Assembly (NCBI GenBank): GCA_021018995.1
Contig: CM037588.1
Location: 150,865,725 to 150,929,724, forward strand
DNA from: Chloranthus sessilifolius
Taxonomy: Eukaryota; Streptophyta; Magnoliopsida; Chloranthales; Chloranthaceae
Reading direction: 5' to 3'
DNA: 64,000 nt
The position numbers and the translations under genes are program-made. Positions 2,633 through 36,997 of the stretch are shown one piece after another (the stretch's first letter is position 1; every line of letters starts with the position of its first letter). The notes under the pieces are model-generated. The model made no database searches and was not told the origin of the DNA. It worked only from the letters and a program-made list of their open reading frames with translations.

Positions 2633-3209
2633 TTACAATTTGCACAAAAAAGGAAACCCATTGAATACAGCAAGGATCAAGCAAACCTTCATCGTCCTCC
2701 TAATCATAATCCCCGTGAAAACAAGAACACGGCCCAATACCGAACTCAAAATAATCTTCGGACAGTGTGGACAAAACCAGGCCTTTTCCTCTTCAAATGG
2801 TCCTCTGTCAGACCGGAAACTCCTCAAATGGGCAGCTCTCTTCTGAACCTCGGATTCGAGCCCCATTTTCCCACAACCTGTAATATTGAGACTCTCGAGC
2901 TCTCTGCAGCCTTTGAGAATGATAAGCAAGGTTTCATAGGAAAATAAGGAGAACGAGAGATCTAGAGATTTGATTTTTGGGAGCCATTCAACAATGGCAT
3001 CAGCAGCACTCATGGGTATTTTATTAAAAGCTCTCAAATGAGTAAAGTTTCTGCAGTTGCAATTAATTTGCTGCAGAATTTCCGAGTGAAGGGAATATTC
3101 GTCGACGTCCATGCCTTCTAGCCCTTTCCATTTGCCTATCGCCTGGCGGAGGCCTTCCTTAGATATCATGGTCGGAAGCCTCAAATAGAAGAACTTCAGA
3201 TCAGGGCAC
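2633..3209 (-). CDS. F-box/LRR-repeat protein, last exon (F-box exon not found)
   Basis: A minus-strand open frame encodes leucine-rich-repeat sequence of the plant F-box/LRR type, resembling the At3g48880-like group. Repeats include LKFFYLRLPTMISKEG, FTHLRAFNKI, IKSLDLSFSLFSYETLLIIL and LESLNITGC, the usual 'category of L, C and D/S' spacing. Such proteins are substrate receptors of SCF ubiquitin ligases: the F-box binds SKP1 and the LRRs choose the target. A splice acceptor TTTGCAG at about 3210-3216 fits the start of the exon, so the frame seems to be the 3' exon, ending in a stop at 2633. No F-box was found on the minus strand upstream (higher coordinates), where a TRIM, a LINE and other elements lie. 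Either the intron is long or the 5' part is lost. The last 45 or so residues look less conserved and may be read-through into non-family sequence. Confidence 0.6.
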
Positions 3210-3484
3210 CTGCAAACAGCAATTGTATGTTCAGTAATCAATTTTTGTCACGTTTTTGTCGCCCTCGTTTATGAATTCTGTTGATTACAAGTCACCTCTA
3301 CAAAACCACAGATTTTGTTGGGCTGGTTTGTCCCAAATATGACCTATATTAGTAAGGTGATTAATAACACCTTAATAAAATGTCAAAGATGATAATAGAC
3401 TGAGGCTCTGAAATAAGTTGGAACTCAATTAAAGAATACCAGAGAGATGCATAGCTGGAGAAATAAGCAATAATTGATGATAAT

Positions 3485-7764: not shown

Positions 7765-8390
7765 TGTAACGGCTAAATATCGTATCATAATAACAATAAA
7801 TGATATGGGAAATATTTTGCATTAAGCAACGGAAGTGACGAGATAACAATAATGAGGACCTATTCGAGGAAATCCTAGGTCCCACAAGAAAGTCCCACTA
7901 ACAATCAACCTCCTCCTGTTAGGCCATCAAGTCCCTATTTAAATTACATTAGAGTTCAAGGTCTGAGGACATTTTTAACCCAATACAAATATCATCATGA
8001 AACCCGGAAATGAACCACCCAGTTAGATACATTTGGGGGACTTGATTTGCTAATCTTTCAAATTGTGCCTGATATGGTGAACCGATGTTTCTTTCCGCAA
8101 CTTAGATCGTGCCCCGTTGGGTTAATCAATCTTTGAAGTGACAAATCGGATACAGATGGTCTTCTTGAATTGATCCCAAGCATAGTTACCAAAAATGACT
8201 TTTTAAAAATAAAACTCATTTTAAATGCATTTTTTTATTTATGTCACTAATAAATATTTTCATTACTTTTTCCAATTGTTTCCCAAATTTTACTGATCTT
8301 TTTATTGGAAATTTTAAAATCTAAGCTCGAATCACACGATCAAATATACATCTTGATAAGAACATGTGTACCTTGTATTTAATTTCGGGT
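7765..8390 (-). repeat. Ty3-type LTR (3' LTR of a minus-strand relic)
   Basis: The sequence from TGTAACGGCTAAATATC (7765) matches, with changes, the stretch that begins at 10632 next to a primer-binding site. Shared landmarks are GTGACGAGATAACAATAATG, TTAGGCCATCAAGTCCCTATTTAAAT and AGTCCCA. The element therefore reads on the minus strand, with its 5' LTR at 10632 and its 3' LTR here. The upper limit is uncertain because a Copia relic follows. Confidence 0.55.
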
Positions 8391-10316
8391 TGATGTGCTA
8401 TTGATCTCTGCAAGAGAATCCGAGTCCACATTACCTCTCGTCTTCTCTAAGTTTAGCCTCTAGATGGGAATGTATTAGGGTTAGAAGAAGAGGGGACTAG
8501 GGTTAGAAGAAGAGGGGACGGTGATCTCCTTATATAGCCACTTGTCTTTCCTAACCCATCAAGGAAAGAGAGTGGAGACATATTACTTATATTAGGGAAC
8601 TACTTGCTTCCTATCACCTCGAGATACGTGTGATCAAAGGTCCAACCCAATTTTTAGTAGAAACCCAAAGATGGGTTAAGGTGTTGACCATAAAAATCCA
8701 ACATTCTCCCACTTGGTCTATACCTTAACTCATCTAAACATAATTTTGAAAAAGACTCTGAGCTGACAAACTTTGAAAAGCGGATGACCATCCATTTTAT
8801 ATTTTGAAAAATCATTGACCTCCACTACCTCGACGCTTCGTAACAATCACCCAAATTCAATAACAATATCAGTAAAGGATCATGACGCACAGGGTATTTC
8901 ATCTTACAAATCGACACTAGGCAATCCATGGTCACAAAACTACCATCATTAATGAACTTAAGTCTTTGCTTAGTGATACCAGACAACGCACACATATGTC
9001 GTACCTATATTTGTTCAACTTCATACCGCAGGGCATGCCTCTCTGATATTTTACTGGCTCTCTGCCTGTGACTCACGTTACCAATCTAACAGAAAGAAAG
9101 CTTACCGATGTGGTGTCTAATCACATCTAGCCCAAGCAAATTAGGAAAATTGAGATCTAACTTCACCACTCTGCCATGTGATACAATCCTTATGCAGATG
9201 GTCAGAGTATAATTACATGTACCCTCAATAACATGTACACAATTTCATACGATGAGTCAGTTATAATATATATTTGAAAACTCATCAATCCAAGCTAATT
9301 ATCTCCCACTGATTTGCCCATTCATAATAGCAATTAATGAACAACAGGAATGATTTGATATCAACTATTTATAATCATTTAATTAAACTTATGCAAACCA
9401 AGTCTATCAAAATAAATGTCAAAGTACTAACTAATGCCGTACAAAAATAAATGACGAAAATGTGATTTCAGTTATGAGACTTTCTCGGACTGAGATGTTC
9501 CTCTTTTGACCTGCTTCAATAGATCTTTAAATATAAAGCAGTCCCTCTGAAGATGTCCCTTTTGCTTGCAGTGTCAGCATTCTAAATTTCCAGGTTTGAC
9601 TTTCTTATTCGAATTATTCTCTACTCCAGCTCGCTTTCGATTGAAGTTCTGACTATGATTCTTTTTAAAAATCTTTATCAATCACTTTAAATATATATCA
9701 CTAACGATTTAATTAGAATACGTCATGATCATATGTCCTGGAAGATTACGTTATGACCATATGTCACTAAATATTCATCGTGAACTATGACCATATGTCA
9801 CTAACTATTCTTCGAAAATTTAAATTCTGATTTAGGGTCAAATTTGAATTAATTAGAGTGTTAGCTATGAGCAACTTTCACTCTTTGGGACAATCAGTCG
9901 CCATGTCTCAGCATCACCTCTAGGCAGAAACGTTAACATGCAGTTTGTTTCCCATGACAGTGCTTGAGAAAACACGCATAGACTTAATCACTCGTGTTGT
10001 ATGTTTGATCCAGACTCTTCATCAGCTTTGGCCAGAAAGATTGTTTTTCTCTTCCTTACGCACTTATGACTATTCTATTCACCGTACTTAGCCTCTAGAT
10101 GGGAATGTGCTAGGGTTAGAGCAAGAGGGGACGGTGGTCTCCTTATGTAGAAACTTATCTTTCCTAACCCATCAAGGAAAGAGAGTGGAGACATACCACT
10201 TATATTAGGAAATTACTTGCTTCCTATCGCCTCGAGATATGTGTGGCCAAAGGTCCAACCCAATTTTTAATGGAAACTCAAAGATGGGTTAAGGTGTTGA
10301 CCATAAAAATCCAACA
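8391..10316 (-). mobile_element. Deleted Copia retrotransposon nested in the Ty3 relic
   Basis: Two copies of one LTR segment lie at about 8452-8703 and 10088-10316. Both end, on the plus strand, in CCATAAAAATCCAACA, which on the coding strand is the LTR start TGTTGGATTTTTATGG. Next to the left copy is the polypurine tract CCAAGTGGGAGAA (8704-8717, minus). Between the LTRs only part of gag survives; integrase and reverse transcriptase are gone. The left LTR has an internal 22-bp tandem duplication (AGGGTTAGAAGAAGAGGGG, 8478-8523). The 5' LTR looks cut off on its inner side. Confidence 0.65.
9500..9625 (-). pseudogene. Copia gag zinc-knuckle relic
   Basis: On the minus strand the CCHC nucleic-acid-binding knuckle reads C-stop-HCKQKGHLQRDC, preceded by KPGNLE and followed by FIFKDLLKQ. 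The residue after the first cysteine, usually tryptophan in this family, is a TGA stop, so the frame is broken exactly in the knuckle. Confidence 0.7.
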
Positions 10317-10630
10317 CTTTTCGCTTTTTTTTTTATTGCCATGCTGATTTTTTCCTGAATTAGTACTTGGTAAGTATGATCCCAAGTTATTGGACCAAAG
10401 GTGGATGTCATCCACTGATACCATAGAGTCGCATCTCCTTGGAGATGAATAGATTTTAAACTGTTCCGCAATAAAATCTACCCAAACCGAGGTGGATTTT
10501 CCTCTCAGATGCCATGATGCTAGATTTTCCTCCGTTGTCGTCTTGAGTGAATTTACATTTCTTTCGAGTTCCTTGTTCGTTGCGCTGGCGACATGCAGAT
10601 GAAGCTTGAATGAGGCTAGTTTTGATACCA
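10317..10630 (-). pseudogene. Ty3-type gag relic with primer-binding site
   Basis: A minus-strand retrotransposon gag fragment. WVDFIAEQF and, in another frame, HLQGDATLWYQWMTSTFGPITW are the core of the Retrotrans_gag domain. The switch of frame between the two shows a frameshift. About 25 bases upstream the primer-site relic TGGTATCAAAAC abuts the LTR at 10632. The frame used by the longest open reading frame here mixes real and shifted gag. Confidence 0.65.
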
Positions 10631-10631
10631 A

Positions 10632-10862
10632 TTGTAACAATGTATTACGTAAATATCATATGGTAATTATCATATATGATCAACAAAAGTGATGAGATAA
10701 CAATAATGGTTACCTATTTGAGATGGTCCAGTCTCCTAATTCCCACATGGGAGTCCCAACAACAGTCAGCCTCCTTCCATTAGGCCATCAAATCCCTATT
10801 TAAATTGTAATTCATAATACTCTTATCCTACCTACAACCAAAGTTCTAATTTAACTAGATAA
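10632..10862 (-). repeat. Partial 5' LTR of the Ty3 relic
   Basis: Matches the LTR at 7765 (GTGATGAGATAACAATAATG, TTAGGCCATCAAATCCCTATTTAAAT). It is cut at 10863 by the insertion of the large-LTR element, whose 5-bp duplication TGCCT begins there. The rest of the LTR should continue after 21219, but I could not align it by eye. Confidence 0.5.
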
Positions 10863-11171
10863 TGCCTTGTTATGACCCGAATTTTGAAAACCCGTTTGTG
10901 TGGTCATAGAAGGGCAAAAGCACCGTTTGTGTGGTCGTCGTGATGGGGAGAAGCACCAACCATAGTAAGGGTGCTCCATACCCCAACTTTTAAAATTGCT
11001 AAAATTAGAGTCCTAATAGGACTCTTTTGTTTCAAATCACCGGTTGTAGATCTCTCTCTCACCCACGTTCTCTCTCTAAACCATATTTAGTAGCCTCCAA
11101 TAAAGGGATTTAATTTCCCAATTTTGACAATCGCATCTCAGACCTCATGGGCATGGCCCCCTATTTTTCCT

Positions 11172-11210
<39 letters not shown>

Positions 11211-11629
11211 CACTGTGAATCAAGCAGCCTCCCGATTAAATTAGCAACTCTCTCTCCTTCTTTCTCTCTCATCGAGCCAAAGCCTCTATTAATTGGACTC
11301 TTCCTTTGTAGCTACCCAGTTGAGCCAAACTCTCCCTCTCTATCTCTCTTTCCCTCTCTACGCCCCCTCTTCTTTGACTAGATACCCACAACAACAACTA
11401 AACAACCACACGCCTTTACCGTTCTCTCTATCTCTCTAACCAAAAGCCCATCCTCTGCTCCACATCATCTTCCATAGCAGCATAAGTTCACCTCATTTTT
11501 CCGTTGGGTCGATCGGGATCCGTCATCAGGCTCCCAAGGTTAAGAGACTTCGACTTTGTTGTAGTTACAAAAGTAGGTATGCTACAGATTTTGATGGATA
11601 GATCCATTTCGCAGTAAGAGACGGAGTTG

Positions 11630-12060
11630 AAAAACTCGATCAAGAGATGCATCAAGATTCTTTTCATAATTACAAATTTGCCTCAATAGGTTCTTAAATG
11701 TGAACGGCTCAAGGTAATGAAACTAAAATATTGTGGAATCAAGTTTCCTTGTTATGTGGATTTGGCTTCACTAAGAACCTTGTATCTATCGTATATTGAT
11801 TCAAGTGGCATCAAATCAGGTGGAATCGAACCAAGTGGCATTTTGAATTGTCAATTCTTGAATGGTTGTCCACTCCTCGAGGATTTGGAGATTGATTATT
11901 CTGATCTTTCGGACTCTGATGATTGTGATGGTTCAAAAGTTTTCCATATTTCTAGTATGCTAGTTAAGCATTTAACGATTCGCAAGTCTTATTTTCACAA
12001 ATTAGAAATTTATACTCCTAATCTCCTATCATTGGAAATTTTGGGACAAGCTTGTAAGGA
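11630..12060 (+). pseudogene. Captured F-box/LRR gene fragment (copy in 5' LTR)
   Basis: A plant F-box/LRR (FBD-like) leucine-rich-repeat segment is readable on the plus strand. In order: NLPQ-stop-VLKCERLKVMKLKYCGI, then FPCYVDLASLRTLYLSYID, CPLLEDLEIDYSD, FHISSMLVKHLTIR, and LEIYTPNLLSLEI. This is the usual LP..LF.C.SLK.LKL..C then LP.L..L.L pattern. The F-box itself and the C-terminal FBD domain are absent. One in-frame stop precedes the 162-codon open frame that begins at 11717. After about 12060 the frame continues into unrelated LTR sequence. It is not a functional gene; it travels as cargo of the LTR. Confidence 0.7.
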
Positions 12061-14655
12061 TATTTATTTTCGGAACACCTCATCCGGGCACCATCTTATG
12101 TGCTTAAACTCGGCTGCAACACTGGGTAAATGCATCAGAAAATTAGGCAAGGAGATAGACTCTTCACACGATCACAAGCAATGCGTCAAATCCGATTTAC
12201 GTTGACGCAAACCCTTCGATCCGAATCAACTGAATCTTTGCGAAATCTGCGCGATCACGCTACAATAGGTGGATACCCTTCCATCCATCCAAATCTACGC
12301 TTTTACACTTTTTGTGATGATTATATGAAAATTGCAATTTTTTATTCTTAGGTTTTGTGTAGATTCACAAGATGGTTATTGTCAAAGGGTTGACCCGATG
12401 GTTGGACCAAGCGATCGAGAACTATAGTATACTATATCCTTCTACATGGCACACAAGTGTGCCGATAAAATAGATCCCGAGGACTATAAATTGGGCACAA
12501 AGAAAGCCCATGTCAAGGATGGGTTGTTGCCCCATTCTATGTTTGACTGTGCACTCGATGTGGAGGTCTTCGTTTGATTGTTTCAATTTCGAGGATCCAA
12601 TCAGTTTCTTACCTTAGTCAAATCGTGGACTCCCCATAAAATTTGTTGCTTTTTACACTGATGGCTCACATTGATCTGTTTGTCATTATTTTTCATAAAT
12701 TTTAGTACTCTAAAAACCTGTGAATATATTGACTTTACACTTAAAATATTTCCTGCTCTTATTTTGAAAATTTACACATACATTGGCCAAAGGGTCCAGT
12801 TTGACCCATTAAATTAAGCAAACCATAGACATATGAGTCGAGGCCCGTGGATCTAAATAAAGATAATTTGGCTATCTGTTAAATCGATGGTCAGATTTTG
12901 ATTATAATAAACAAACCTTAGTCTTTGCACCACCTAAAGTGGTGCACATAACCACAGAAACTCCTGCACTTATGCCTATGGCACCTTAGTCTAGGGTATG
13001 GTTTGACATTTTTAGATCTCAAGTTTTAAGTTGAACTGGGATTGGAGACACCAAGAAGGATCCCTCATAAATTTTGAATCTCTTCTCATCTGACTAATAG
13101 TTTTATCTGAAAACAGATCTAGTCGATTTAGGCCGCTATACAAGTTTCCCAAAAATAATGAAGGGCTTTATAGCCTTAGACACCCAACGTCAAGGGGCAT
13201 GTTTGACTCCCAACCTGACCTTGAAAACAATTAAAATAGTGAGGGGTACGAATGGAAACCCACCTTTTAAGATTAGGAGAATCTTCTAGATAGATCTTTA
13301 AATCACGCCAAGATGGTGTACACTACTCGATGATCATACGATAATACAATCTTGATCAAAATCTGAGGCCATTCAGTTAATGGTCTAAATGATCAAACCA
13401 ATAGTGGCAATCATATGGTACTTAAACATCCATTACACTAATGACGTATGTAGGATTTGATTATTCTAAACTCGATCACATGCATCTTAAAATGCGTGTA
13501 TTGAATATTCAATGGTTTATCAGTGATTGAGTCATACCGAGACTAAATCTTATGGGAATCATATAAATGATCAGTCAGTTTTCATCAGATTGACAAGATC
13601 TATTTCATGAGACTAGTCTAACATCACCTTGTGATACATATTATAGTACTCACTTACCTTCATTGTAAGTTTTCTCCTCTCTCTTAATGATGAGTGAGAC
13701 GTCCGAATTACGAGAAATATTAATTCTCTTATGGTCAGATATTTTCTTATTATATGCTTCATTTGCATTGTGTGACATTCACCACTTAGAAGTACGTTAG
13801 GGCATATATATGTTAAGAAAAAAGAATAAGATATAATATACGACTTTTAAGCCTTCGTCACGGTAGGATTTCTTTTATTGTCACATGGAACTTGGAATGT
13901 AGGCATCCATGTATGGATGCAACACCTCTATGGGAGTATGAGCTGTCACACGAAGTACATCAAGGTTACTTCAGAACCCATCCCTTGGAAAGCGAGGTTA
14001 GTGAAGCCTATCGCACCGTGACCTATTCTAATTAAATTTAAGAAAAAATGGAATATGAATATATTAAACTACGAGATGTTAAGAGAGTGAGAACTTAAGC
14101 CCACACAAATATGAAATTGAGGCGGGGACCTAAGCCCAGATCCGAATAATGTTATGATAAGACACGTTGTGAAGACCATTTAAATATGAATTAAGTTTTT
14201 ACACGTGTCATACCTTACGAGCCACCGTAAGGGTCCAATGTCTGTAGCCAAGATGGGTCATAAGGACAATATGATACGACAGTGTCTCGACTTAAGGAGA
14301 TATTGATTTTTATGCGCGCAACCTCATCGGGTTGGATGGTGACTTATGTTATGATATGAAGGTTAGGTGATTATCTACACATGGAGCTCGCGTGATAGGC
14401 TCTAACAGCGATCCTGACACAGATCGTTTAAACAAAATAAGTAAAATACGAAGTACGTTGTGTAAGCTTATGGAGTAATAATAAGACTTCTGATATATCA
14501 TGTAAGTTAAGTTCACAAAACAAGTAAGAAAAGTGTTAAGCATCATATGTATTGAAGTCTGCTATGTTCTTTCAGTTTTATAGTTTTATGGATATGAAAT
14601 GTTTATGAAAATTTTTATTATGTTGTTTATATGGAATTGTAAAAGATTCACTTTC

Positions 14656-15225
14656 ACTCACGAAGTTGCACCCACGACCACCTGGATAGATTGTGGTGGA
14701 TTGGTTGTGCAACTCACTGAGTTTATGTGACTGAGTAAACTCATCCCCTCCCAAAAACTAACAATTGCAGGTGAAGATATGGACTACACTGCTCAGTGGA
14801 CTTGATGCGTTAGTAGATTATGCAGTTTATGAGGGTGATGACGTGGATGACCAGATAAACTATGTCAGGTATGTATTAATTGTTTAGTCAGACTTTCCAG
14901 TAGTGGATCGGACCTTTATTTATAGTTATTTGTATAATGGACTCACGAAGTTGCACCCACAACCACCTGGATAGATTGTGGTGGATTGGTTGTGCAACTC
15001 ACTGAGTTTACGTGACTGAGTAAACTCATCCCCTCCCAAAAACTAACAACTGCAGGTGAAGATATGGACTACACTGCCCAGTGGACTTGATGCGTTCGTA
15101 GATTATGCAGTTTATGAGGGTGATGACGTGGATGACCAGATAGACTATGTCAGGTATGTATTAATTGTTTAGTCAGACTTTCCAGTAGTGGATCGGACCT
15201 TTATTTATAGTTATTTGTATAATGG
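14656..15225. repeat. Tandem duplication 2 x 285 bp in the 5' LTR
   Basis: The block beginning ACTCACGAAGTTGCACCC occurs at 14656 and again at 14941, and its copies are nearly identical through TATTTGTATAATGG. The 3' LTR has no second copy and lacks most of the first, so the duplication probably arose in this LTR after insertion. Confidence 0.9.
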
Positions 15226-15424
15226 ACTCAAAATTAAAGGTAAGCTCAATGAAGGAAATTTTTTAATATGAGAAGAAGATTTGGTTCACGATTTTTGAAA
15301 GCCCAACTTTATGTAAGATTTAGTAAGATATGGATGCCCACTTATCGCCTTAACAAGCATGCGGTGTCATAACACAGAATTCTAGGTCATTGAAATCGGT
15401 TAGGATTCTGAGTCGTGACAGAGA

Positions 15425-15436
15425 TGGTATCAGAGC
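15425..15436 (+). other. Primer-binding site (initiator-Met tRNA type)
   Basis: TGGTATCAGAGC, four bases after the LTR end, is the classical plus-strand copy of the 3' end of plant initiator methionine tRNA. Minus-strand DNA synthesis of the element would start here. It fixes the 5' LTR end and the element's orientation. Confidence 0.9.
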
Positions 15437-16861
15437 TCAGGCTTTACGTCTTCGAGGAATATATGGCTTATATAAGTACACTATGGTGATTGAGGTGACA
15501 ATGATTCTAATCGACTCAAACTCTATATCTTTTGAGGACTGAAAGATTTTACGAAAGCATGATCAATAATGGTATAAGATTTTAATGTTCTATTGGAGAT
15601 TTAAAGATCTATTGGTTAAAAAGTTATATGGGCTAGAAGCATGTGAGGGAAATTGAAAAGGATCTTTGAAGATTGAGGAGCAATTAGAAGAGACATTTTA
15701 AAGTGTTGGGGAATAATTAGAAAAATAAATCTTGAATGATTTGATGATTTATAACTCATTATTATTTGAGATGTAGATTATAAGATTAGTTTATTAGATT
15801 AGAAGTTATTTTAGATTGAAAAATAAATTATTATCAGTAACCTTAGATGATATTGAAATACTTTATGATCAACGAGATATAATGAAGAAGATGTTATCTT
15901 GCAATGAAATTTTAAGAGTTATCAATTATGAGAAATAAAGATAAATTTCGAATAAATTATTTAAAGGTTACAAGAAGAAATAACTATTGAGGATTGAATG
16001 TTAGGAATTTTACTAAGCAAATGATATCAAGAATCAAATAATTTTAATGTATCAGTTGAAATTTTATTTCTAAGGATTTGGACCAAGTGTGACACTTAAA
16101 ATATCAAGTGCCTAAGGTTAATTAGGAATGACAATTAATTTGATACTTAAAAGACCAAATCTCAATATTAATCATAAAGGATTGATGAATCATGAGTAAT
16201 AAAGTCATGAAAATCGTGAAAAAGAATAAATTGATTTTGATTCCTACGTACCCCCTTTATTGAACTCATAAAGTACGATTTACACATCGAGTAACGTTTA
16301 ATAAAAGAAACAGCTCCCATCTGCATTCATTGGGTGCGACATGGTTAAATTCGAGAAATTGGAGAAAGATTTGAATAAAATTCGAAGAATAAAAAAATCA
16401 AGCGAATATTTGATAAAAGTTCGACATTATGTGTTCGGAGAAATTTGTGACAGAAGTTGGTACTATTTTATAGAATGATAAATCTAGCTCGACCTCTATT
16501 ATAGGGAGGGGAGAACCCTATCTCGATGATAGCATTAAATATTTAGTGTGCAAATAATGAAGAGTTGCGAGTGATTGTAGATTAACTAAGAAGTGATGAT
16601 TTGAGTTTTAATCACAAGCCTAATTTTCGAGGACAAAAATTTTAAAAGGAGGAGAGAATGTAATGACCCGGGTAATTGCAAACGTTGAATCGTTGACGTG
16701 TGAGAAAGTTTTGACTTTTGTTTGACTAATTTGACCTTAGTCAAACCAGTGACCCATTTGATGTGGCCTTTGGTCCCACTTTATCTTTTTAGGGAGTGTG
16801 CACAAGTACGAAATTGGAACCGATCTACGAATTAGTCGGTACATAATTTTCGGGGATGAAA

Positions 16862-16882
16862 ATTTCTTTTAGGGGGAGAAAA
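16862..16882 (+). other. Polypurine tract of the LARD-like element
   Basis: TTTTAGGGGGAGAAAA lies immediately before the 3' LTR start TGTTATGACCC at 16883. It is the expected plus-strand priming site. Confidence 0.85.
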
Positions 16883-17639
16883 TGTTATGACCCGAGTTTT
16901 GAAAACACGTTTGTGTGGTCATAGATGGGGAGAAGCACCAACCATAGTAAGGGTACTCCACACCCTAAAATTTCAAATTGCTAACATTAGAGTCCTAATA
17001 GGACTCTTTTGTTTCAAGTCACCGGCTGTAGATCTCTCTCTCTCACCCTCTTTCTCTCTCTAAACCCATATTTAGTAGCCTCCAATAAAGGGATTTAATT
17101 TCCCAATTTTGGCAATCGCATCCCAAACCTCACGGGCATGGTCCCCTATTTTTCCTTCTCTCTCTCTCTCTATATATATATATATCACTGTGAATCAAGC
17201 AGCCTCCCAATTAAATTAGCAACTCTCTCTCCTTTCTCTCTCATCGAGCCCAAGCCTCTATTAATTGGACTCTTCTTTTGTACCTACCAAGCTAAGCCAA
17301 ACTCTCCCTCTCTCTCTCTTTCCCTCCCTACGCCCCCTCTTCTTTGATTAGATACCCACCACAACAACCAAACAACCACACGTCTTTACCCTTCTCTCTC
17401 TCTCTCTCTAACCGAAAACCCATTCTCTGCTCCACATCATCTTCCACAGCAGCATAAGTTCACCTCATTTTTCCATTGGGTTGATCAGTATCTGATCCTT
17501 CATCAGGCTCCCAAGGTTAAGAGACTTCGACTTTGTTGTAGTTACAAAAGTAGGCATGCTTCGAATTTTGATGGATAGATCTATTTCGCAGTAAGATTAG
17601 TTATAAAACTCGATCTGGAGACGCATCAAGATTCTTTTC

Positions 17640-18020
17640 ATAATTACAAATTTACCTCAGTGGGTTATTAAACGTGGACGGTTCAAGGTACTGAAAGTAA
17701 AATATTGTGGAATCAAGTTGCCTTGTTTTGTGGATTTGTCGTCACTAAGAACCTTGTATCTATCGTATTTTGATTCAAGTGGCATCAAATCAGCTGGAAT
17801 CGAACCAAGTGGCATTTTGAATTGTCAATTCTTGATTGGTTGTCCACTCCTCGAGGATTTGGAGATTGATTATTCTGATCTTTCGGACACTGATGATTGT
17901 GATAGTTCAAATTTTTTTCATATTTCTAGTACTTAAGCATTTGACGATTCGCAAGTCTTATTTTCGCAAATTAGAAATTTATACTCCTAATCTCCTATCA
18001 TTGGAAATTGCGTGACAAGT
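17640..18020 (+). pseudogene. Captured F-box/LRR gene fragment (copy in 3' LTR)
   Basis: The same leucine-rich-repeat stretch as in the 5' LTR, from LKVKYCGIKLP through LRTLYLSYFDSSGIKSAG and CPLLEDLEIDYSD. The open frame at 17718-17936 stops after FHISST. The copy also has a TGA just after LLSLEIA. Substitutions are scattered over all codon positions as far as I can judge, as expected for cargo without selection. Confidence 0.7.
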
Positions 18021-18880
18021 TTGTAGGGATAATTATTTTGAGAATACCTCCTCTGGACACCATCTTATGTGCTTAAACTCGGCTGCAATACCGGGTAAAT
18101 GCATCAGAAAATTAGGCAAGGAGGACTCTTCACACAATCACAAGCAATGCGTCAAATCCGATTTGTGTCGACGCGAAGCCTTCGATCCGAATCAACTGAA
18201 TCTTCGCGAAATCTACGCGATCACGCTACAACAGGTGGGTACCCTTCTATCCATCCGAATCTACACTTTTACACTTTTTGTGATGATTATATGAAAACTG
18301 CAGTTTTTCATTCTTAAGTTTTGTGTGGATTCACAAGACGGTTATGGTCAAAGGATTGACCCAATGGTTTGACCCATCGGCTGAGAACTATAATATACTA
18401 TATCCTTTCACATGGCACACAAGTGTGACGGCAAAATAGATTCCGAGGACTATAAATTGGGTACAAAGAAAGCCCATGCTAGGGATGGGTTGTTGCCCCG
18501 TTCTATGTTTGACTGCGCATTCGATGTGGAAGTCTTCGTTTGACTGTTTCAATCCTAAGGATCCGATCAGTTTCTGACCTCGGTCAAACCGTGGACTCCC
18601 CATAAAATTTGATGCTTTTTACACTAATGTCTCACATTGACCTTCTTGTCTTTATTTTTCATAAATTTTAGTGCTCCAAAAATCTATGAATATATTGACT
18701 TTACACTTAAAATATTTCCTGCACTTATTTTAAAAATCTGCACATACATTGGCGAAAGAGTCCAGTTTGACCCATTAAATTAAGCGAACCACAGACATAT
18801 GAGTCGAGGCCCGTGGATCTAAATAAAGATCATTTGGCCATCTGTTAAATCGATGGTCAGATTTTGATTATAATAAATAA

Positions 18881-19480
18881 ACCTCGGTCTTTGCACCAAC
18901 TAAAGTGGTGCACATAACCACAGAAACTCCTGCACTTATGCCTATGGCACCTTAGTCTAGGGTCTAGTTTGACCGTTTTAGATTTCAAGTTTTAGACCGA
19001 ACTAGGACAGGAGACACCAAGAAGGATCACTCATAAATTTTGAATCTCTTCCCATTCGACTGATAGTTTTGTCTGAAAGCAGATCTAGCCGATTTTGGCT
19101 GCTATACAAGTTTCCCAAAAATAATGAACTTTATACCCTTAGAAACTCAACGTCAAGGGGCATGTTTGACTCCCTACCTGACCTCGGTATTTGCACCACC
19201 TAAAGTGGTGCACATAACCACATAAACTCCTACACTTATGCCTATGACACCTTAGCCTAGGGTCTAGTTTGACCCTTTTAGATATCAAGTTTTAGGCTGA
19301 ACTGGGACATGAGACACCAAGAAGGATCCCTCATAAAATTTGAATCTCTTCCCATCCAAATGATTGTTTTGTCTGAAAACAGATTTAGTCGATTTACGCC
19401 GCTATACAAGTTTCCCAAAAATAATGAAAGGCTTTATACCCTTAGACACTCAATGTTAAGGGGCATGTTTGACTCTCTAG
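18881..19480. repeat. Tandem duplication 2 x 300 bp in the 3' LTR
   Basis: The block starting ACCTCGGTCTTTGCACCA at 18881 returns at 19181 as ACCTCGGTATTTGCACCA and is followed by the same sequence for about 300 bp. The 5' LTR has one copy. The two units differ at several positions, so the duplication is not very recent. Confidence 0.85.
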
Positions 19481-21447
19481 CTAACCTCGAAAATAATCAA
19501 ACTAGTGAAGGGTCCAAATGAAAACTCACATTTTAAGATTAGGCGAATCTTCTAGATATATCTTAAAATCACGCCAAGATCGTGTATACCACTCGATGAT
19601 CATACGATGATACGATCTTGATCAAAATCCAGGACCATTCAGTTAATGATCTAAATGATTAAACCAATAGTGACAATCATATAGTACCTAAACATCCATT
19701 ACACTAATGACGTTGGTAGGATTAGATTATTTTAAACTCGATCACATTCACCTTAAAATGTGTGTATCGAATATTTGATAGTTTATAAGTGATTGAGTCA
19801 TATCGAGCCTAAATCTTATCGGAATCACGTAAATGACTAGTCGGTTTTCATCAGATCGACAAGATTTATCTGATGAGACTAGTCTAACATCACCTTATGA
19901 TACGTATTATAGTACTCACTTTCCTTCATTGTAGGTTTTCTCCTCTCTCTTAATGATGAGCGAAGCGTCCGAATTATGAGTAATATTAATTCCCTTATGG
20001 TTAGATGTTTTCTTATTATATGATTCATTTGCATTGTGTGGTATTCATCACTTAGAAGTACGGTAGGACATATATATATTAAGAAAAAAAAAATAAGATA
20101 CGACACACGACTTTTAAGCCTTCGTCACGGTGGGATTTCTTTTATGGTCACGTAAAACTTGGAATGTAGGGATCTATATATAGATGCAACACCTCTATGG
20201 GAGTATGGGCTGTCACATGAAGTACATCCAGGTTACTTCGTAACCCATCCCTTGGAAAGCATGATTTGTGAAGCCTATCGCACCGTGACCTATTCTAATT
20301 TAATTTAAAAAAAGATGGAATATGAATATATTAAACTACGAGATATTAAGAAAGTAGGGGCTTAAGCCCATACAAATATGAAATCAGAGCGGTGACCTAA
20401 GCCCAAAACCAAATAATGTTATGATATATTAAGACACGCTGTGAAGGCTAGCTGAACATGAATTAAGTTTCTACATGTGTCATACTTTACGAGCTACCGT
20501 AAGGGTACAATGTCTGCAGCGAAGATGGGTCTTAAGGACAATATGATACGACAGTGTCTCGACTTAAGGGGACACTAATTTTTATGTGCAACCTCATTGG
20601 GTTGGATGATAGTTTATTTTATGATATGGAGGTTAGGTGATTATGTACATGTGGACCTCGCGTGATAAGCTCGAGCAGTGATCCTGATACAGATCATTTA
20701 AACAAGATAAGTAAGATACGAAGTACGTTGTTTAGGCATATGGAGTAATAATAAGACTTCCGATATGTCACGTAAGTTAAGTTGATAAGACAAGTAAGAA
20801 AAGTGTTAAGCATCATATGTATTGAAGTCTACTATGTTCTTTCAGTTTTATAGCATTATAGATATGAAATATTTATTAAAAGTTTTATTATGTTGTTTAT
20901 ATGGAATTGTAAAAGATTCACTTTCACTCACGAAGTTGCACCTACGACCACCTAGGTATGTATTAATTGTTTAGTTAGACTCTCCCGTAGTAAATTGTAC
21001 CTTTATTTATAGTTGTTTTGTATAATGGACTCAAAATTAAAGGTAAGCCCAATGGCGGGAATTTTTAATATGAGAAGAAAATTTAGTTCACGATTTTTGA
21101 GAGCCCAACTTTATGTAAGATTTAGTAAGATATATATATCCGCTTATCGCTTTAACAAGCGTACGGTGTCATAACACGAAATTCTAAGTCATTGAGATCG
21201 ACTAGGATTCTGGGTGCCTATTCTAACCATGAAGAAAAGATAACAAATAGTACAAGTAAAATTAAGATATCTAGGGTCACTTGGAGTCATAAGCAAGTCA
21301 TGTGGCAGAGTTAGTTTGTCTTCTCATGGTAAAACAATATAGACAAGGAAATAAGACATTGCGCAAAAAATAAAACATAGAAATAAAAACATGTGTTTTC
21401 TTTTTCTTTTTCTTTTTTCCAGTTCTTTTCAACATTCCTCATTGGGC

Positions 21448-22439: not shown

Positions 22440-25400
22440 AAGTGTTAGAAATTCGATACCTCGTGAGAATCAAACTTTGACCTTCAAATTATCGAAATCA
22501 CACTTATAACCATATTCTATAATTATATTGATGTGTTATGTAAATAAATATAATTATAATCATAATCAAAATCTAAGTGTAAACCGTTATGTACATGTGA
22601 TACTTTTGTGCTTGCATCCTGATCAAGTTATATGAGTTAAGGATATGTTAAATCATGGGTACGAGAGTGTATGAGAACATGCCTACGCTTGGGCGTGGTG
22701 ACTCACTGAGATGGTATTGAAGCGAGAAATATACTGTATTTACATGCCTTATAACTCATGGTGGAATGGGGTCCATGACGAGTCGGGTGAGTGCGAATTC
22801 AGCGTAACCTCATATACGGTGGCATATATGGTGACCCGATCACCCCAAGTTTAAATATGATAGTATAAGTTATAAGTTAAGTTATGAGGTTCGACCATAG
22901 GCTTTAGCTGTGGTGAGGTCTTTTTTACAGTCACGTGAAACTCGGGATATTTGTTGTGAAAATTAAGTTGTACTCGTAAGTGCACGAATCGTGATATAAT
23001 CAGTGGGTGCAGAGTACGAGATCATTCCCATGAGGATTGATTAGAAATTTTAAAATAAAAAATAACAATTAACCAAAAGAATTTCCACAAATCTATCACA
23101 GTGTCTTCTAAATTAAAAACGTAAGAATTTGAAAAATAAGATAAATACTAACCACTAATTGAAATTTAATAGATTATAAAAGATAATGATTGGGATACTA
23201 AATCTTCCCATCGTAGGTTTATCATTTACAGAATATAAATCTGTAGGTTTATCATTTACAGAATATAAATCTGTGGATGAAGATATGAGATCTTCATAAG
23301 ATGTCTACGAAGGAGCACCGGCCCTGAACACTCATGAGTTTTAAAGTATAGATCTGAGATCATGGAAATGCGTGATTAACACCCCATGAGTGTATGATTA
23401 ACACTCACACCTCAGATAGTGATTGGAACTCACCATGGGATAAAGTCACACTATCAATTCAAGATCAAGGAGATGTGTGATTAACACCTTATGAGTGTAT
23501 GACTAACACTCACACCTCGGATAATAGTAGAACTTCACCCCGAGATGGGTAAAAATTTGAATGATATCATTATTGCAGATCTGAAATCATAGGGCATGAT
23601 TAGCTCCTAAATTTCAAATCACATTCAGATCACATTCATATCAACAATAATCTCTGAGCTCTTAAAAGAATCTAATATCTCACCCACACATTTATATTAT
23701 CGTAAATGAATACCTCGGATGGGGTTCATCAGATCCCCATCCTTAATGAAACTAGCTACACATAGTAACAGTAAAACAACATGATTGAAATGTAAACCAA
23801 CATAAACATTAAAATACCGTAAAGGGCTTTAATAATATCCACAAAAAGCTTTAATCTAAAGTACGTATACCTCCTTCTTGAAAGTGGATAAAAACCATGA
23901 AACTAAGACTTATCTTCTCTCCAGAAAAATGAATAATAAAAACTCGTTCAAGAAGAAACTGGGACCAAACGCCCTTACAAACTTGAAAGCAGAAAATTGG
24001 AGAAAAAATGCCAAAACAGAAGCCGCCTTCTCCTCCTCCCGAATCCTAGATTTTATGCCCCGAAAATAGTATTGAGATTCGGGCGGTCAAACTCAAATTC
24101 AAACTTGGTCGATTGATCGACTTAGTCAGTCGATCGATCGACCAAGTTAAATTGTATTATTCAAGTTTAAAAACTTCCGGGCTATGCCGATCAATTGACC
24201 AACAAGGGTCGATCAATCGACCTACTCAAAAGGTCTTGCTTTTCTTTATTTGTTAGTTCCTTTTCGCTTTTTTGCCATTTTGTGCTTCCTAATGAGTTTA
24301 ATGACCACTTTGTCCTGAAACTTAGAAAACTTGACAAATCATGTTAGATAGCTTTCACCGGACGACTAAATATAGATGTTTAGGGGTGAAATATCATCAA
24401 ATTTCACTGCACATCAATATTGACGTCTATGTACGGATGCAACCTCTTTATGGTAGTCTGGGCTGTCATATGAAGTACTTCCAGATTACTACGAAACCTC
24501 TTCCTTGAGAAGCGTGATTTAGGGAAGTTACCTCGCTATAATTTGTCTTAAGATTAAGTGTAACAGTACAATAAGATATGAGTATGAGATAAGATAAGTT
24601 ATGAAACGTATACGATAATAAGACACTGCTGTATAGGCCAGCAAAAAATTAAGAATATAAGTATCTGTACGTGTCGTTCTTTGCATAGCCACCTTAAGGG
24701 CAATAACGTCTTTCAGTAAAGACGGATCTCTGAAAGAGATTATGAGTATAAGAATATTATGAGTGACTTTGGCCATTATATCTCCCCATTGGCTGGATGG
24801 TGGAGTATGAGTTTGACACGAGGGCGTTATGATATAGTGGTATGATACTATGTTGACCCTCCCATGGTAGCTCGAGCAGCTACTCTGGCACAGGTCGTTT
24901 TGAATTTTACGAGTATGTTAGTTACGTTAATGCGATGTATAGACGTATGTGTGAGAATGATAATAAGACATGGTATGATATATTATGAGATATGGTAAGG
25001 TACGCTAAGATATGAGCGTCTAGATCATGGTCTTGCATTTATGATGTGATATAAGTTTTACTATATGCAAATAGTTTTATCTTTCTCTTGCATTCTGTTT
25101 TGAGATATTATATTTATTACTCACAAGATGCACCCACAATGCACCTGAGAAGTATGGGGTGGATTGGTGGTGTATCCACTGAGTTTACGTGACTGAGTAA
25201 ACTCTTCCTATGATAATTTAATAGTTGCAGGTGATTACGCTAGTAGAGTAAACACCGGCCATCCTGATCCCGCTAACGCTGATTTCATTGATCCCACGGG
25301 CGTTGAGTACCAAGAGCCTAGGGAGGGCAACGGAGCTGAGTACCAGGAGGGCTACGGTGTGATTTCGATCCGAGTGCTGGATATTGATCATTGCAGACTT

Positions 25401-25695
25401 GGTAGCAGATTTTGTCCATATTATTATCATTGATTTTATGATTTTATTTTATCGGATTTATCTCCGACTTTCATTATTATTTTATTGATGGATTATTTAG
25501 ATTCATTACTTTATTCTAGCATTTATGATTGCTTTTATTTCCACCATTATGTGTTGATTTTCACGGATTTCGTGGAACCATTTTTGCGCGATAACTCTGA
25601 TTAGGTGTATGACCGCTTAGCATATCCGGGATATGTGCGGGTTATAACTTGAAATTCTAAGCCTTCGGGATGAGGTAGAATTTCGGGTCATGACA
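22440..25695 (+). repeat. LTR related to the LARD-like element, interrupted
   Basis: The part after the nested solo LTR (24422-25695) follows the same order of blocks as the LARD LTR. These are GGATGCAAC.TCTATGG..GT.TGGGCTGTCA, CACCTTAAGGG.CAATG, and GTTTACGTGACTGAGTAAACTC...TTGCAGGTGA. It ends GGGTCATGACA, matching GAGTCGTGACA. Taking out the insert leaves about 1.8 kb. The pentamer ATACG occurs at 22435-22439 and directly after the end (25696-25700), a possible target duplication. The start AAGTGTTAG is not a clean TG, so the left boundary is tentative. No captured gene fragment is present. Confidence 0.5.
22952..24416 (+). mobile_element. Solo LTR, 1,465 bp, TSD ATATT
   Basis: Starts TGTTGTGAAAATTAAG and ends ACTGCACATCA, with a perfect 5-bp duplication ATATT on both sides (22947-22951, 24417-24421). 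The opening words GTACTCGTAAGTGCACGAATCG resemble a widespread plant LTR type. A perfect 30-bp tandem duplication lies near 23215-23275, and inverted TCGATCGATCGACC words at 24110-24230. Coding capacity is absent, as expected for an LTR left by recombination. Confidence 0.8.

Positions 25696-26081: not shown

Positions 26082-26082
<1 letters not shown>

Positions 26083-26150
<68 letters not shown>
26083..26150. repeat. (AT)n microsatellite
   Basis: About 34 uninterrupted AT units; cruciform-prone and expected to vary in length. Confidence 0.95.
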
Positions 26151-28880: not shown

Positions 28881-29159
28881 TGCTTTCGGAGAATGCGTGG
28901 GCGTTGCAATCAGAGGCACCCGATTTGTAAATGGGCGGTCATGCCCATTAATCCTAAATTACGGGGAAAGCCGCCATAGCCAATTGCAAGGGTATCTTGG
29001 TCAATTCAGTATCTCTAACGGTAATCTTGCTTCTTTTCCTCCAAAATAACTAAATTTTGAAACCCCAGAGCGTCTTCACTCCCCTTATTTTCTTTGCAGA
29101 TCAAACCCCTTCCTCCTTCGTCTCTCTCAAGAAACCCTTTCTTTTTCCACCATACAACC

Positions 29160-30239
29160 ATGGCCTCTTCCTGCTCTCATTGGTGGCACGCCCCAATCTA
29201 CATTACAATCTCCATAATCCTCGCCATGGTAGCAATCTCTACACCTTTTCACTCGATCAACAAAACTTATATCCCAATCTCCCCGAAACAAGAACCCTCG
29301 TACATCGAACACATCTCCGTGAACGCCTCCTATGCTCTCCGCAACTCGGGTTTCAATTTCATGGCTACCCTTCTGCAGATATCAACCCATCTCCTCCCTC
29401 CTTTCGAATCCACCATTTTCGCAATCCAAGATCCTGCAATATCAAACATTTCTCTTCCTTCTTGGAAGATGAAAGATCTTATGCATTACCATACTTCTCC
29501 GATTAAGCTTTCGTGGAATGATCTGTTGGAAAAGCCCTCTGGAAGTTGCGTCCCAACCCTTCTCCACGGAAAGAATCTCGTGATCACCAAGGCTAATGGC
29601 ACCAAACGATCATTGCAAATCAATGGCGTCATGATTTCTCACCCAAATATTTTTGTTCAAGGTCCTTATGTAATTCATGGAGTTCTTGCGCCTTTCTATT
29701 CATTCGAATACAAAGATTTAACAATCGGTGAAGACCATCTCCCGTTGCCTGTCTGCAACGCAAATTTGGGCCTAATTGAAGATGCAAAGGAGGCAGGAAG
29801 TGCTGTTCCATGGGGTCGGATTCTTACACTGCTAAGCTCGAACGGGTTTATTTCATTTTCGATTGGCTTGCATTCGGTTCTCGATTCGATTCTTGCAGAT
29901 TTCCCTGATTTGAATACGGTTACTATTTTTGCTCCTCCAGATGATGGATTTGCATATGTTGCCTCGCCTACACCATTGTTAGAAATGATTGTGAGGTTTC
30001 ATATACTGCCTCGGAGATTTTCTTATGGTGATTTGACTTTGATGCCAGAGAACGCAGCTCTTCGTACACTGATTCCGGATCGAGATCTCAACATAACAAG
30101 TGGTGGTAATTTTAGTGAGATCCTGTCCATTAACAGCATCCAGATTACTGTGCCTGATATGTTCTCTGATCACGGGTTTGTCATTCATGGGATTTCTCGA
30201 GCTTTCCAAATGGTAAAGCTTTCGATGAAATCCAGTTGA
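29160..30239 (+). CDS. Fasciclin-like arabinogalactan-type protein (two FAS1 domains)
   Basis: An intronless gene for 359 residues, secreted or membrane-anchored, of the plant FLA family. FLAs are cell-surface adhesion-like glycoproteins linked to wall architecture and growth. Residues 11-26 form a hydrophobic signal or anchor segment (APIYITISIILAMVAI). The first FAS1 domain covers about 55-180, with an STIFAIQD box near 84, Tyr-His near 110 and the closing PYVIHGVLAPF near 169. The second covers about 215-350, with VTIFAPPDDGF near 253, MIVRFHILP near 275 and HGFVIHGISRAF near 337. At least six N-glycosylation sequons are visible (NKT, NAS, NIS, NGT, NIT, NFS). I chose the ATG at 29160, not the in-frame one at 29094, because it starts the signal segment (MASSCSHWW). 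Pro/Ala/Ser-rich AGP stretches and a C-terminal GPI-anchor signal are not obvious, which points to the FLA20/21-like subgroup. Two MITEs lie upstream. The frame is open and uninterrupted, so the gene is probably functional. Confidence 0.85.
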   Translation: MASSCSHWWHAPIYITISIILAMVAISTPFHSINKTYIPISPKQEPSYIEHISVNASYALRNSGFNFMATLLQISTHLLPPFESTIFAIQDPAISNISLPSWKMKDLMHYHTSPIKLSWNDLLEKPSGSCVPTLLHGKNLVITKANGTKRSLQINGVMISHPNIFVQGPYVIHGVLAPFYSFEYKDLTIGEDHLPLPVCNANLGLIEDAKEAGSAVPWGRILTLLSSNGFISFSIGLHSVLDSILADFPDLNTVTIFAPPDDGFAYVASPTPLLEMIVRFHILPRRFSYGDLTLMPENAALRTLIPDRDLNITSGGNFSEILSINSIQITVPDMFSDHGFVIHGISRAFQMVKLSMKSS

Positions 30240-31774: not shown

Positions 31775-31776
31775 AT

Positions 31777-31779
31777 AAA

Positions 31780-31841
<62 letters not shown>
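31777..31841. repeat. (TA)n microsatellite
   Basis: About 32 TA units ending six bases before the LTR-like sequence at 31848. Confidence 0.95.
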
Positions 31842-31843
<2 letters not shown>

Positions 31844-31847
31844 TTTA

Positions 31848-32220
31848 TGTTGAGATTGCGCCTTGATTCTGTTGACGGTACGGATCAACAGGTTGGACTA
31901 TACACCCAGCCACAGCTGCACGAGTTAATCCTAGGGTTACTGAGGGTATTTTCGTCATATTATATATTGGGCGGTCATACTTTGTATTAGATATAAACTC
32001 TAATTATATATTAGGGTTATATTGGAAGAAACTTAATCTCTGTATTTAGTGAGGTGAGATCCAAGAGATTTTAACCCTAGTTCTCACATAGTAGTGAAAG
32101 GACTTAGAATCGCCGATAGACGTAGGCAAATTGCCGAACCACGTAAATCTTGTGCTTGTGTTTTGTTTGTTTTGTGTGTTTTTTTATTTTCATATTTTTC
32201 TACACTTTATATAGGTGGCA
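31848..32220 (+). repeat. Probable Copia LTR (solo or truncated)
   Basis: Starts TGTTGAGATTGCG and includes TATATTAGGGTTATATTGG and CGTAGGCAAATTGCCGAACCACGTAAATC, then a T/G-rich tail. This is the usual end of Copia LTRs of the kind whose transcripts carry GCCGAACCACGTAAAT. No partner LTR or coding region on the plus strand follows. The right end and any target duplication are not resolved. Confidence 0.5.
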
Positions 32221-32513
32221 TTTCACCAAGATTACAAGAAAAGTAGAAGAAAATAAAATCTAGCCTATGATCTAATATAGAGTGTTGCACAGAAATTCTT
32301 AAAGTAACCAACGATCTCACAATGAACGGTCAAATAAGAACGCAAAATAAAAAAAAATCAAACACAATCATATAAGAGACAAAATTTATGTGGTTCGGCA
32401 TTTGTTTATGTCAACGGCAAGGTGTCAAAACTTATATCGGACTCGGGTATCAATTTATGGAGGACTGATACGAATCAGCCGATACATATCAGCCATTTTT
32501 ATTTTTTTTAAAA

Positions 32514-32514
<1 letters not shown>

Positions 32515-32573
<59 letters not shown>
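32515..32573. repeat. (TA)n microsatellite
   Basis: About 29 TA units. It creates the artefactual Tyr-Ile open frame at 32390-32575. Confidence 0.95.
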
Positions 32574-32580
<7 letters not shown>

Positions 32581-32889
32581 TACTGACTAGTGAATACTTG
32601 TATTCACATTAATGTGAAGGGGTAAGACTGGTAGGGCATGGTGTACCAGTAATTGCACCGATGGATCTGGACGATCTTAACCGTCCAATAAATACATTTA
32701 TTGCAGTGGCTTTTTTCTGTGATGATTGACAAGCTGTCAGACACACAAGAGCAGCCGGTTCTGTTTTTTTAAAGTGTGAAGCATGATAAGTTGTCACATC
32801 ACACAAACTATCCGTTTACTTTTTCACCAACATCCCATACGCCTTTAAACTCGTTGATTGCTTGATATCAGATGATGGAGATCGTGTTA

Positions 32890-33049: not shown

Positions 33050-33849
33050 CAAAATATGACCTAAAATCAGAGTCTTAGACCACTTGCCAAGCTGTCAAAC
33101 AAGACGCTGGTTTGCATGCATTCGCGGGGCTACGAATTGGTCAATGCCTGAACTTGATATATCGGTTTGGCCAAAACCCGATACGTATTGCGGATACGTA
33201 TCGGTATCAGCCGATTTTTGATATCATGGTTCACGGGTAATGATGATTCACTATATTGATGATTCCACAAAAATACAAGAACACTTAAGTCTTATCAAAG
33301 CTTTCCACAAAATTTTAGATAAGTTTACCAAAGCTTTATAATGATATATCAACTCTCTAATTTGTCTAAGAACTTTTTCCTTATATAGAAGATACTAAAT
33401 CCTACTAATATAATAGAGACTACTAAATACGGAATATTAACACAACTGGGTCATCGTCAGGTTGCTCGACCGGGAACCAAAGTTGCTTGAGTGACTTAAA
33501 CCCGAAAGTTTGCCTGTTACATGAGTAAACTGATTGCTCGAGCGACTTATACCAGTAAGTTGGCCCCATTGGGCGACCCATATCGCTTGAGCAGATTTGG
33601 TTCCCGCTCGAGCTAGCTCTAGGAAGTTATAACCTAAAACAATAATTCTCCACCTGACTCTAAGCTTCACCATGTGCTCTTTCCTTCGATCATCGCTAAA
33701 CTCGTTTCACCGCTGCCACCACCACCCCGAGGGCGCCCAAACCTGTTGAGCATTAATCAAATCCAAACAATGTTTAGACTTGACCACCAGTACCATCTTT
33801 TTCATTATATCCGCAGGATTGTCTTTCGTACTCACCTTCTTCAAAGATA

Positions 33850-34090
33850 TCTCGCCATTTTTTATTACTTCTTATACGAAGTCATACCGTATATCAATGT
33901 ACTTGATACGAGCATGATATACATGATTTTTTGTAAAGTAAATAGCACTCTGGCTATCGCAGAACACATAAACACTTTCTTGTGAGATCTTCAAATCACC
34001 AACTAAGCCCTGAAGCCATAATGCTTCTTTCATTGTCATATACTTTACCTCCATAGTAGACAAAGCCACTATATCCTATAACATCGACCT
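33850..34090 (-). pseudogene. Copia RNase H relic
   Basis: The C-terminal RNase H of Copia is readable as LSTMEVKYMTMKEALWLQGL, VYVFCDSQSAIYFTKN and HARIKYIDIRYDFV, matching the A.YMA..EA.WL..L / CDSQSAI.L / H.RTKHID.R.HF landmarks. The usual Glu of the AEAEY box is present as MEVKY. The downstream end runs into stops before the 3' LTR. Confidence 0.8.
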
Positions 34091-34169
34091 CCAGCCAATA
34101 GAGTATTCACTGCCTTTGAGTTCTCCATCTCATACCGTGAGAATGCCTTCTCCAGATAACTCTTCTGTG

Positions 34170-34720
34170 TCAGACACAACTACCCTTTCTGTATGTCTCT
34201 TTGAATCTCTATCCGAAGAATTTTTCTTCTTACGCCAAGATCCTTCATCTCAAACTTTATGCTAAGTTGAGATTTCAACTTGTTGATCTCCAACATGCTC
34301 TTTACAGCTATGAGTGTGTCATTAGCATATAAGAGAAGATAAACAAATGAGCAATCCGCTAGCCAACATGAACCCTTCATGTTGGCTCATATAGATCTTC
34401 TCCAAATCACAATGTAGAAATGTCATTTCCACATCGAGTTGCTCTAACTCTAAGTCCAACTGTGCTACAATTGATAACAAAATTCAAATTAAAGTGTATT
34501 TCACAATCGGTAAAAACACCTCATTGTAATTAATTCATTCCTTTTGTGCATAGCCCATTGCTATCAACTGGGCCTTGTACCTTATACCACTACTTTCCAA
34601 ATAACCCTATTTCTTTTTATAAACATACTTGCACCCAATCACTCTCTTATTCTTAGGTAACTCTGTCAATTTTTAAGTCTGATTCTTATAAAGAGAATCC
34701 ATCTATTCATCCATTGCGAC
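34170..34720 (-). pseudogene. Copia reverse-transcriptase relic
   Basis: VYLLLYANDTLIAVKSMLEI corresponds to the catalytic YVDDMLIA box; the double aspartate is now AND, so the active site is damaged. LKSQLSIKFEMKDLGV follows, then a ...KILRIEIQRD landmark. Upstream RT sequence at 34380-34720 is broken into several frames, including a stretch encoding the ECIHKKK.IG-like connection. Confidence 0.75.
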
Positions 34721-35149
34721 TTTCCATTCCTGTGCACATCTTCCACTGATTGCATCCTTAAATGAAAATGACTCATTGCCATCCAATGTCAACGCATAGG
34801 CGACCATATCCTCATGACCTTTGCGAATTGGTGCTTTAGCATTCCTTTTGAAATTTCCACCCGTTAAGGATTTCTCTGGCTCTCTCTCAACTGTTTCTAC
34901 ACTTGAAATTTTTACACCTTTTTCTGATGTAGTAACTGTAGGAGTTTTTAACTTTACCTCGGACTAATCTTTCGCTAACTCTTTAATTTCCATGCTTTGT
35001 TTGTTAGAAGTTTGCATAACATATTCATCAAAGGTCATATATCTACTGATCACAACTTTATTCTGCTTGAGACACCATAACCTGTATCATTTCACATCAT
35101 CTGCATACCTTAAGAAAATCACTTTCTTAGCTCTTGGGTCCATTTTAAT

Positions 35150-35720: not shown

Positions 35721-35731
35721 TTACATCTGTT

Positions 35732-36180: not shown

Positions 36181-36369
36181 TTAACAATACGTTCTTATCA
36201 TTATCTGGAGCTTGTTCGGCTATACCAGCTTCATCAATAACCCCTTTCCACTTCTTATCCTGAGCATCGTTCCTTCTTGATTTAGATATGGACTTTGATC
36301 TATTCCTTCCAGTCTTATGACCCTCTGATATTCTCCTAACAAAAAAGTCATCTGCTTGTGTATCACCAT

Positions 36370-36955: not shown

Positions 36956-36984
36956 CACTGATCGTAGAACATAAACCTAATATC

Positions 36985-36997
36985 TATGATACCAATT
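36985..36997 (-). other. Primer-binding site relic of the Copia element
   Basis: On the minus strand TGGTATCATAGAT, two mismatches in twelve from the initiator-Met tRNA complement, a few bases inside the 5' LTR. Confidence 0.7.

Follow-up and report, generated by a model that had tools for sequence, protein, structure and literature searches.

A probable LARD-type retroelement insertion, dominated by its LTRs, in the genome of Chloranthus sessilifolius

Results

The 64-kb stretch of Chloranthus sessilifolius DNA analyzed here (the window; the parts of the element lie on its plus strand) contains a 10347-bp element. This is very probably a non-autonomous LTR retrotransposon of the LARD type that inserted long ago into this flowering-plant genome. 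Self-alignment of the window revealed two direct repeats, a 5′ LTR of 4553 bp at 10868–15420 (LTR1) and a 3′ LTR of 4332 bp at 16883–21214 (LTR2), in agreement with the pair of 4.3–4.6 kb described in the original prediction, which had also put the LTRs at about 86 percent of the element (8885 of 10347 bp, 86%). The longest aligned piece paired 10924–13221 with 16908–19184 (89.8% identity), the second-longest 12915–14683 with 19181–20953 (88.1%) and the third 15152–15413 with 20954–21215 (87.8%), giving an identity of about 88–90% in the aligned pieces. Both repeats begin with TGTTATGACCCG, and the window has two occurrences of TGTTATGACCC, one at each repeat start. The 12-nt primer binding site TGGTATCAGAGC (15425–15436), which we take to fit tRNA-Met, begins 4 bp past the end of LTR1 and occurs nowhere else in the window on either strand. 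At the other end of the interior, the polypurine tract AGGGGGAGAAAA (16871–16882) directly abuts LTR2, and the 5-bp sequence TGCCT flanks the whole structure as a target-site duplication (10863–10867 and 21215–21219). The primer site, purine tract and duplication had all been predicted, and each was found in its place.

The predicted TG…CA ends were found in one repeat only. LTR1 terminates in GTCGTGACA (15412–15420), which leaves its TG…CA ends intact, whereas LTR2 stops at 21214 with CTGGG, without the final 8 bp of LTR1 (TCGTGACA) and hence without a CA end. The simplest account of this would be a small deletion beside the target duplication. The missing end is a point against the LARD-type insertion that we favor, and two long direct repeats lying close together, taken with nothing more, would also be produced by a segmental tandem duplication in which no retroelement took part. 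We consider that explanation hardly credible, because the repeat borders coincide with retroelement landmarks (TG start, primer site, purine tract), a target duplication is present and the sequences outside the repeats are dissimilar: alignment of the 100-bp outer flanks of the LTR pair gave scores of 13 and 14, and in sets of 500 shuffles 379 and 328, respectively, scored as high. Homology between the repeats thus ends at the element borders. Taken together, the repeats, primer site, purine tract and target duplication are well supported as a single LTR-retroelement insertion.

The interior (15421–16882) is 1462 bp long and has no recognizable coding sequence, as had been proposed. It contains none of the three open reading frames of at least 80 aa listed for the 10–22-kb region, and a Pfam scan gave no match at E ≤ 1 in any of its six frames. 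The element therefore combines paired LTRs, a primer site, a purine tract and a target duplication with an interior without protein-coding capacity, as LARDs do, the CA end of LTR2 being the one part missing, and its length exceeds the 4-kb LARD criterion in the excerpted text of PMC2533021. On these grounds of anatomy, borders, target duplication and coding content, the assignment to one non-autonomous LARD-type insertion was upheld. Within the window there was no second full copy of the element and no empty-site look-alike with a match spanning the join. The LTR start pattern had no match in viral contigs, and neither Rfam at the gathering threshold nor a tRNA scan returned any hit in the whole window.

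Alignment of the 3′ part of the interior with the functional border revealed a feature that was absent from the original prediction. The region 16621–16683 resembles 16844–16906 and carries an additional interior-end/purine-tract/LTR-start junction, with purines at 16644–16658 and TGTAATGACCCGGG from 16659. The local alignment score was 54, compared with at most 31 in 1000 dinucleotide-preserving shuffles. This extra, diverged junction precedes the junction in use by 224 bp, and a similar one lies on the minus strand at 52423–52470 (81% over 48 bp), bringing the number of junction motifs in the window to three. The interior thus seems to contain a 3′ junction that came from a different, though related, element, which suggests that the Chloranthus element arose when two such elements recombined. 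Chimaeras of this kind have been proposed to form by switching of template among packaged RNAs, with Veju and BARE-2 cited as cases (PMC13317346, excerpt), and the same process may have taken part in the making of this element.

The same junction bears on two other explanations. Two LTR-start junctions only 224 bp apart, together with the loss of the last 8 bp of LTR2, would be expected if an old Del-like fragment and a second, separate insertion happened to mimic one element. That is very unlikely, given that TGCCT matches on both sides, that homology begins at the LTR start and extends almost as far as the LTR end, and that the primer site and purine tract are correctly placed. It is easier to entertain, if still doubtful, that the locus is a one-off copy of a coding Del/Tekay-type element that was internally deleted or recombined, and that it does not belong to a non-autonomous family that propagates. 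The duplicated junction does point to rearrangement, and this is the only copy known here; against it, none of the six interior frames retains a recognizable gag-pol remnant at E ≤ 1. This explanation shares its anatomy with the LARD-type insertion that we favor and differs from it in family status, so the probabilities that we attach to the two overlap.

After insertion, the LTRs diverged to about 10% mismatches in the aligned pieces. The Kimura distance between LTR1 and LTR2 was 0.092 for the first main piece and 0.127 for the second; the first piece is the less diverged of the two. With the rate taken from PMC5664825 (excerpt), 1.3e-8 substitutions per site per year, these distances correspond to an insertion age of about 3.5–4.9 million years, and the insertion would be older than that if the plant is slow-evolving. 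Each LTR also carries a tandem duplication of its own. Self-BLAST placed one of an approximately 285-bp unit (97.9% identical) at 14656–15230 in LTR1 only, and self-BLAST and alignment placed another of an approximately 300-bp unit (89.3% identical) at 18881–19489 in LTR2 only. The latter is a different duplication and looks older than that of LTR1.

To place the element among known lineages, we compared it with published descriptions. In the survey excerpted from PMC6317226, 93.4% of plant LTR elements show 5-bp duplications, and tRNA-Met primers are ascribed to Copia lineages and to most chromoviruses, not to other Gypsy elements. The element has a primer site of the tRNA-Met type, as most chromoviruses do, a feature that is common to Copia too. 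The LTRs of Del/Tekay chromoviruses are described as the longest known, at 1.1–4.4 kb with one maize LTR of 4831 bp (PMC4029996, excerpt), and at 4553 and 4332 bp the Chloranthus LTRs fall inside the overall Del range of 1143–4831 bp. Very long LTRs, a tRNA-Met primer site and, in LTR1, TG…ACA ends are shared with Del/Tekay (PMC4029996, PMC6317226, excerpts). At the sites described as conserved in Del, the U3 end and U5 positions −1, −2, −3 and −6, both LTRs open with TG, and LTR1 has a terminal ACA and a G at −6; the end of LTR2 has been lost. Two features speak against the likeness. The LTRs are longer than the averages of the eudicot Del subgroups (1190–3737 bp among those given in passages from PMC4029996), and positions −8, −9 and −10 of the LTR1 U5 read T, G and A, which is neither the GGG of Del type A nor the TTC of type B as excerpted from the same paper. 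Del/Tekay chromoviruses also carry gag-pol, unlike the element described here. Because the U5 triplet does not match and there is no pol with which to place the lineage, we call the element Del/Tekay-like, not a member of Del/Tekay. Its helper was probably a chromovirus of Del/Tekay type; the authors of PMC4029996 (excerpt) expected LTR end sites to help in tracing the helpers of LARDs.

At 24416–25234 the window contains a diverged LTR relative (60.7% identity over 922 bp, E 9e-34), whose alignment is confined to the 3′ portion of the LTR. The sequence GGGTCATGACA follows at 25685–25695, at a roughly collinear distance from this fragment, and the stretch between the two is unaligned. A search for pol beside the 52.4-kb junction or upstream of the 24.4-kb LTR fragment gave no Pfam match at E ≤ 0.01 in any of six frames.

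The claim that the LTR carries gene cargo found weak support. An open frame in LTR1 (11690–12205) spans 171 codons from stop to stop, or 162 aa from the ATG at 11717, and, as judged by eye, resembles F-box/FBD LRR proteins. When a 1.3-kb piece of LTR1 was scanned, one of the three forward frames, this one, gave a weak F-box/FBD-type LRR-like match to Pfam PF24758 (LRR_At5g56370; E 0.0056, 16.8 bits against a cut-off of 27). The match was not recovered at E ≤ 1 when the whole of LTR1 was scanned in that frame, and all six frames of LTR1 yielded only three Pfam matches (E 0.14–0.44), all below the cut-off and none of them LRR. The corresponding LTR2 piece in three frames and the reverse strands of both LTR pieces had no Pfam match (0 of 9 frames), nor did any of the six frames of the whole LTR2. 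Two protein searches with the LTR1 frame were also negative: among 31 word-sharing candidates in the first, in which full-length F-box proteins were outside the reach of the query, none had E ≤ 0.001, and among 341 candidates in the second, none had E ≤ 1. The plant content of the protein database is shown by the fasciclin-like protein of the window, which matched 201 proteins at E ≤ 0.001. Mismatches between LTR1 and LTR2 at codon positions 1, 2 and 3 numbered 15/168, 13/169 and 10/168; they have no codon-position bias and do not resemble the mismatches of a protein-coding sequence that is under selection. A nearby LRR-like open reading frame (2633–3244), considered as a possible source, did not match the LTR1 frame. 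A functional gene in the LTR is thus unsupported, the below-cut-off match being confined to one repeat and lost in the whole-LTR1 scan, and the cargo would at best be the decayed piece of an LRR-like sequence; it does not amount to a demonstrated gene.

Discussion

Elements made up mostly of LTR and without coding capacity are already known, and the Chloranthus element is mostly ordinary among them. Sukkula, a LARD of barley and other grasses, is likewise non-autonomous and combines an interior of about 3.5 kb with LTRs of about 4.4–5 kb. The Medicago truncatula LARD Mtr77, which we compared by its published description, is likewise LTR-dominated and without recognized coding sequence; it has 2191-bp LTRs in a 4668-bp element, that is, about 94% LTR, and an interior of 286 bp by subtraction or about 200 according to the paper text (PMC2533021, excerpt). 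In comparison with Mtr77, the LTRs described here are twice as long and surround an interior of 1.46 kb. With Mtr77 at 94% LTR and Del/Tekay LTRs published to 4.4–4.8 kb, the 86% found here is within precedent, contrary to the proposal that the ratio of LTR to interior lies beyond the described range. Mtr77 is present in five full-length copies with 26 strong hits (PMC2533021, excerpt).

Host sequence within LTR elements also has precedents. Host genes inside such elements are common, with 672 cases in rice and 1343 in sorghum (PMC3726574, excerpt), and elements that lack gag or pol contain about 72% of the retroduplicated NLRs of pepper (PMC5664825, excerpt). Cassandra (PMC7215508) and BARE-2 (PMC13317346), in the excerpts consulted, have host or foreign sequence within the LTR itself, the LTR change of the BARE-2 type being ascribed to template switching. 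In particular, Cassandra LTRs carry 5S rRNA sequence and its promoter, which provides a precedent in principle for a host promoter built into an LTR. By comparison with all of these, the host-like piece in the Chloranthus LTR amounts to a weak, decayed resemblance to a protein gene. The literature listings examined contained no report of a protein gene within the LTR itself, which is weak evidence of absence. It is unlikely that the element represents a LARD family that propagates by means of a Del/Tekay helper and in which the U3 half of the LTR was replaced by the promoter and first coding part of a host F-box/LRR gene. If this were true of a multi-copy family, it would make a good case for how elements acquire new promoters.

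For the LARD-type insertion that we favor, the anatomy is compatible with the following course of events. RNA polymerase II would have transcribed the element from its 5′ LTR, and the RNA may have been packaged by proteins supplied in trans from a Del/Tekay-type chromovirus. Reverse transcription would then have been primed by tRNA-Met at 15425 and second-strand synthesis by the purine tract at 16871–16882, and the second junction in the 3′ part of the interior suggests that two related elements recombined there or that the template was switched from one to the other. The helper integrase would have recognized the TGTTATGACC/…TGACA ends and left the 5-bp duplication. Subsequently, LTR1 would have gained its tandem duplication and LTR2 would have lost its last 8 bp.

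The element is one more clear case of a non-coding, LTR-dominated insertion in a flowering plant, and the doubled purine-tract/LTR-start junction can serve to recognize recombination among related elements. Elsewhere in the window, the fasciclin-like protein used above to gauge the database is encoded at 29157–30236; among the matches listed, the best 120 of the 201 at E ≤ 0.001, the closest were from Tetracentron (61%) and Nelumbo (60%).

Sequences related to the LARD LTR and its junction

By sequence alignment and motif, we identified the plus-strand interval 24416–25695 as the remnant of a related, Del-like LTR, a degenerate 3′ portion ending in GGGTCATGACA. The LRR-like 5′ half of the LARD LTR had no alignable counterpart in this remnant, and the 12-nt primer site that follows the first LARD LTR (LTR1) was absent downstream of it. 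The type of purine-tract/LTR-start junction seen in the LARD recurs a third time on the minus strand at 52423–52470 (TGTAATAACCC); a scan of three frames on the upstream side of this copy returned no Pfam matches.

Each LARD LTR carries a separate tandem duplication, at 14656–15230 in LTR1 and at 18881–19489 in LTR2. The LTR2 duplication, with units 89% identical, looks as old as the divergence of the LTRs, yet the corresponding LTR1 position holds a single unit.

Neighboring elements and other features

Upstream of the LARD, the 7827–10806 region contains two diverged repeat pairs (7827–7945 with 10681–10806, 75%; 8497–8703 with 10110–10316, 91%) and TGGTATCA at 10630 on the minus strand. This region is possibly an old Copia-type element beside which the LARD inserted. 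Direct repeats of ~405 bp (82%), with copies 3.9 kb apart, were found at 33234–37534 and are perhaps the LTRs of another element. Matches to Copia reverse transcriptase (RVT_2; 41468–42223, plus strand), Copia gag (Retrotran_gag_2; 49599–50147, minus strand) and Gypsy-type reverse transcriptase (RVT_1; 56477–57529, plus strand) look like parts of broken elements.

An LRR-like ORF at 2633–3244 (minus strand) weakly matched Pfam PF24758 (E = 0.00042; 20.5 bits, cut-off 27), as did the open frame within LTR1; direct comparison of the two found no similarity. The fasciclin-like arabinogalactan protein 21 gene, its frame open, lies at 29061–30239 on the plus strand and helps to place the host. Three long alternating-TA runs occur at 26082–26149, 31775–31848 and 32507–32583.
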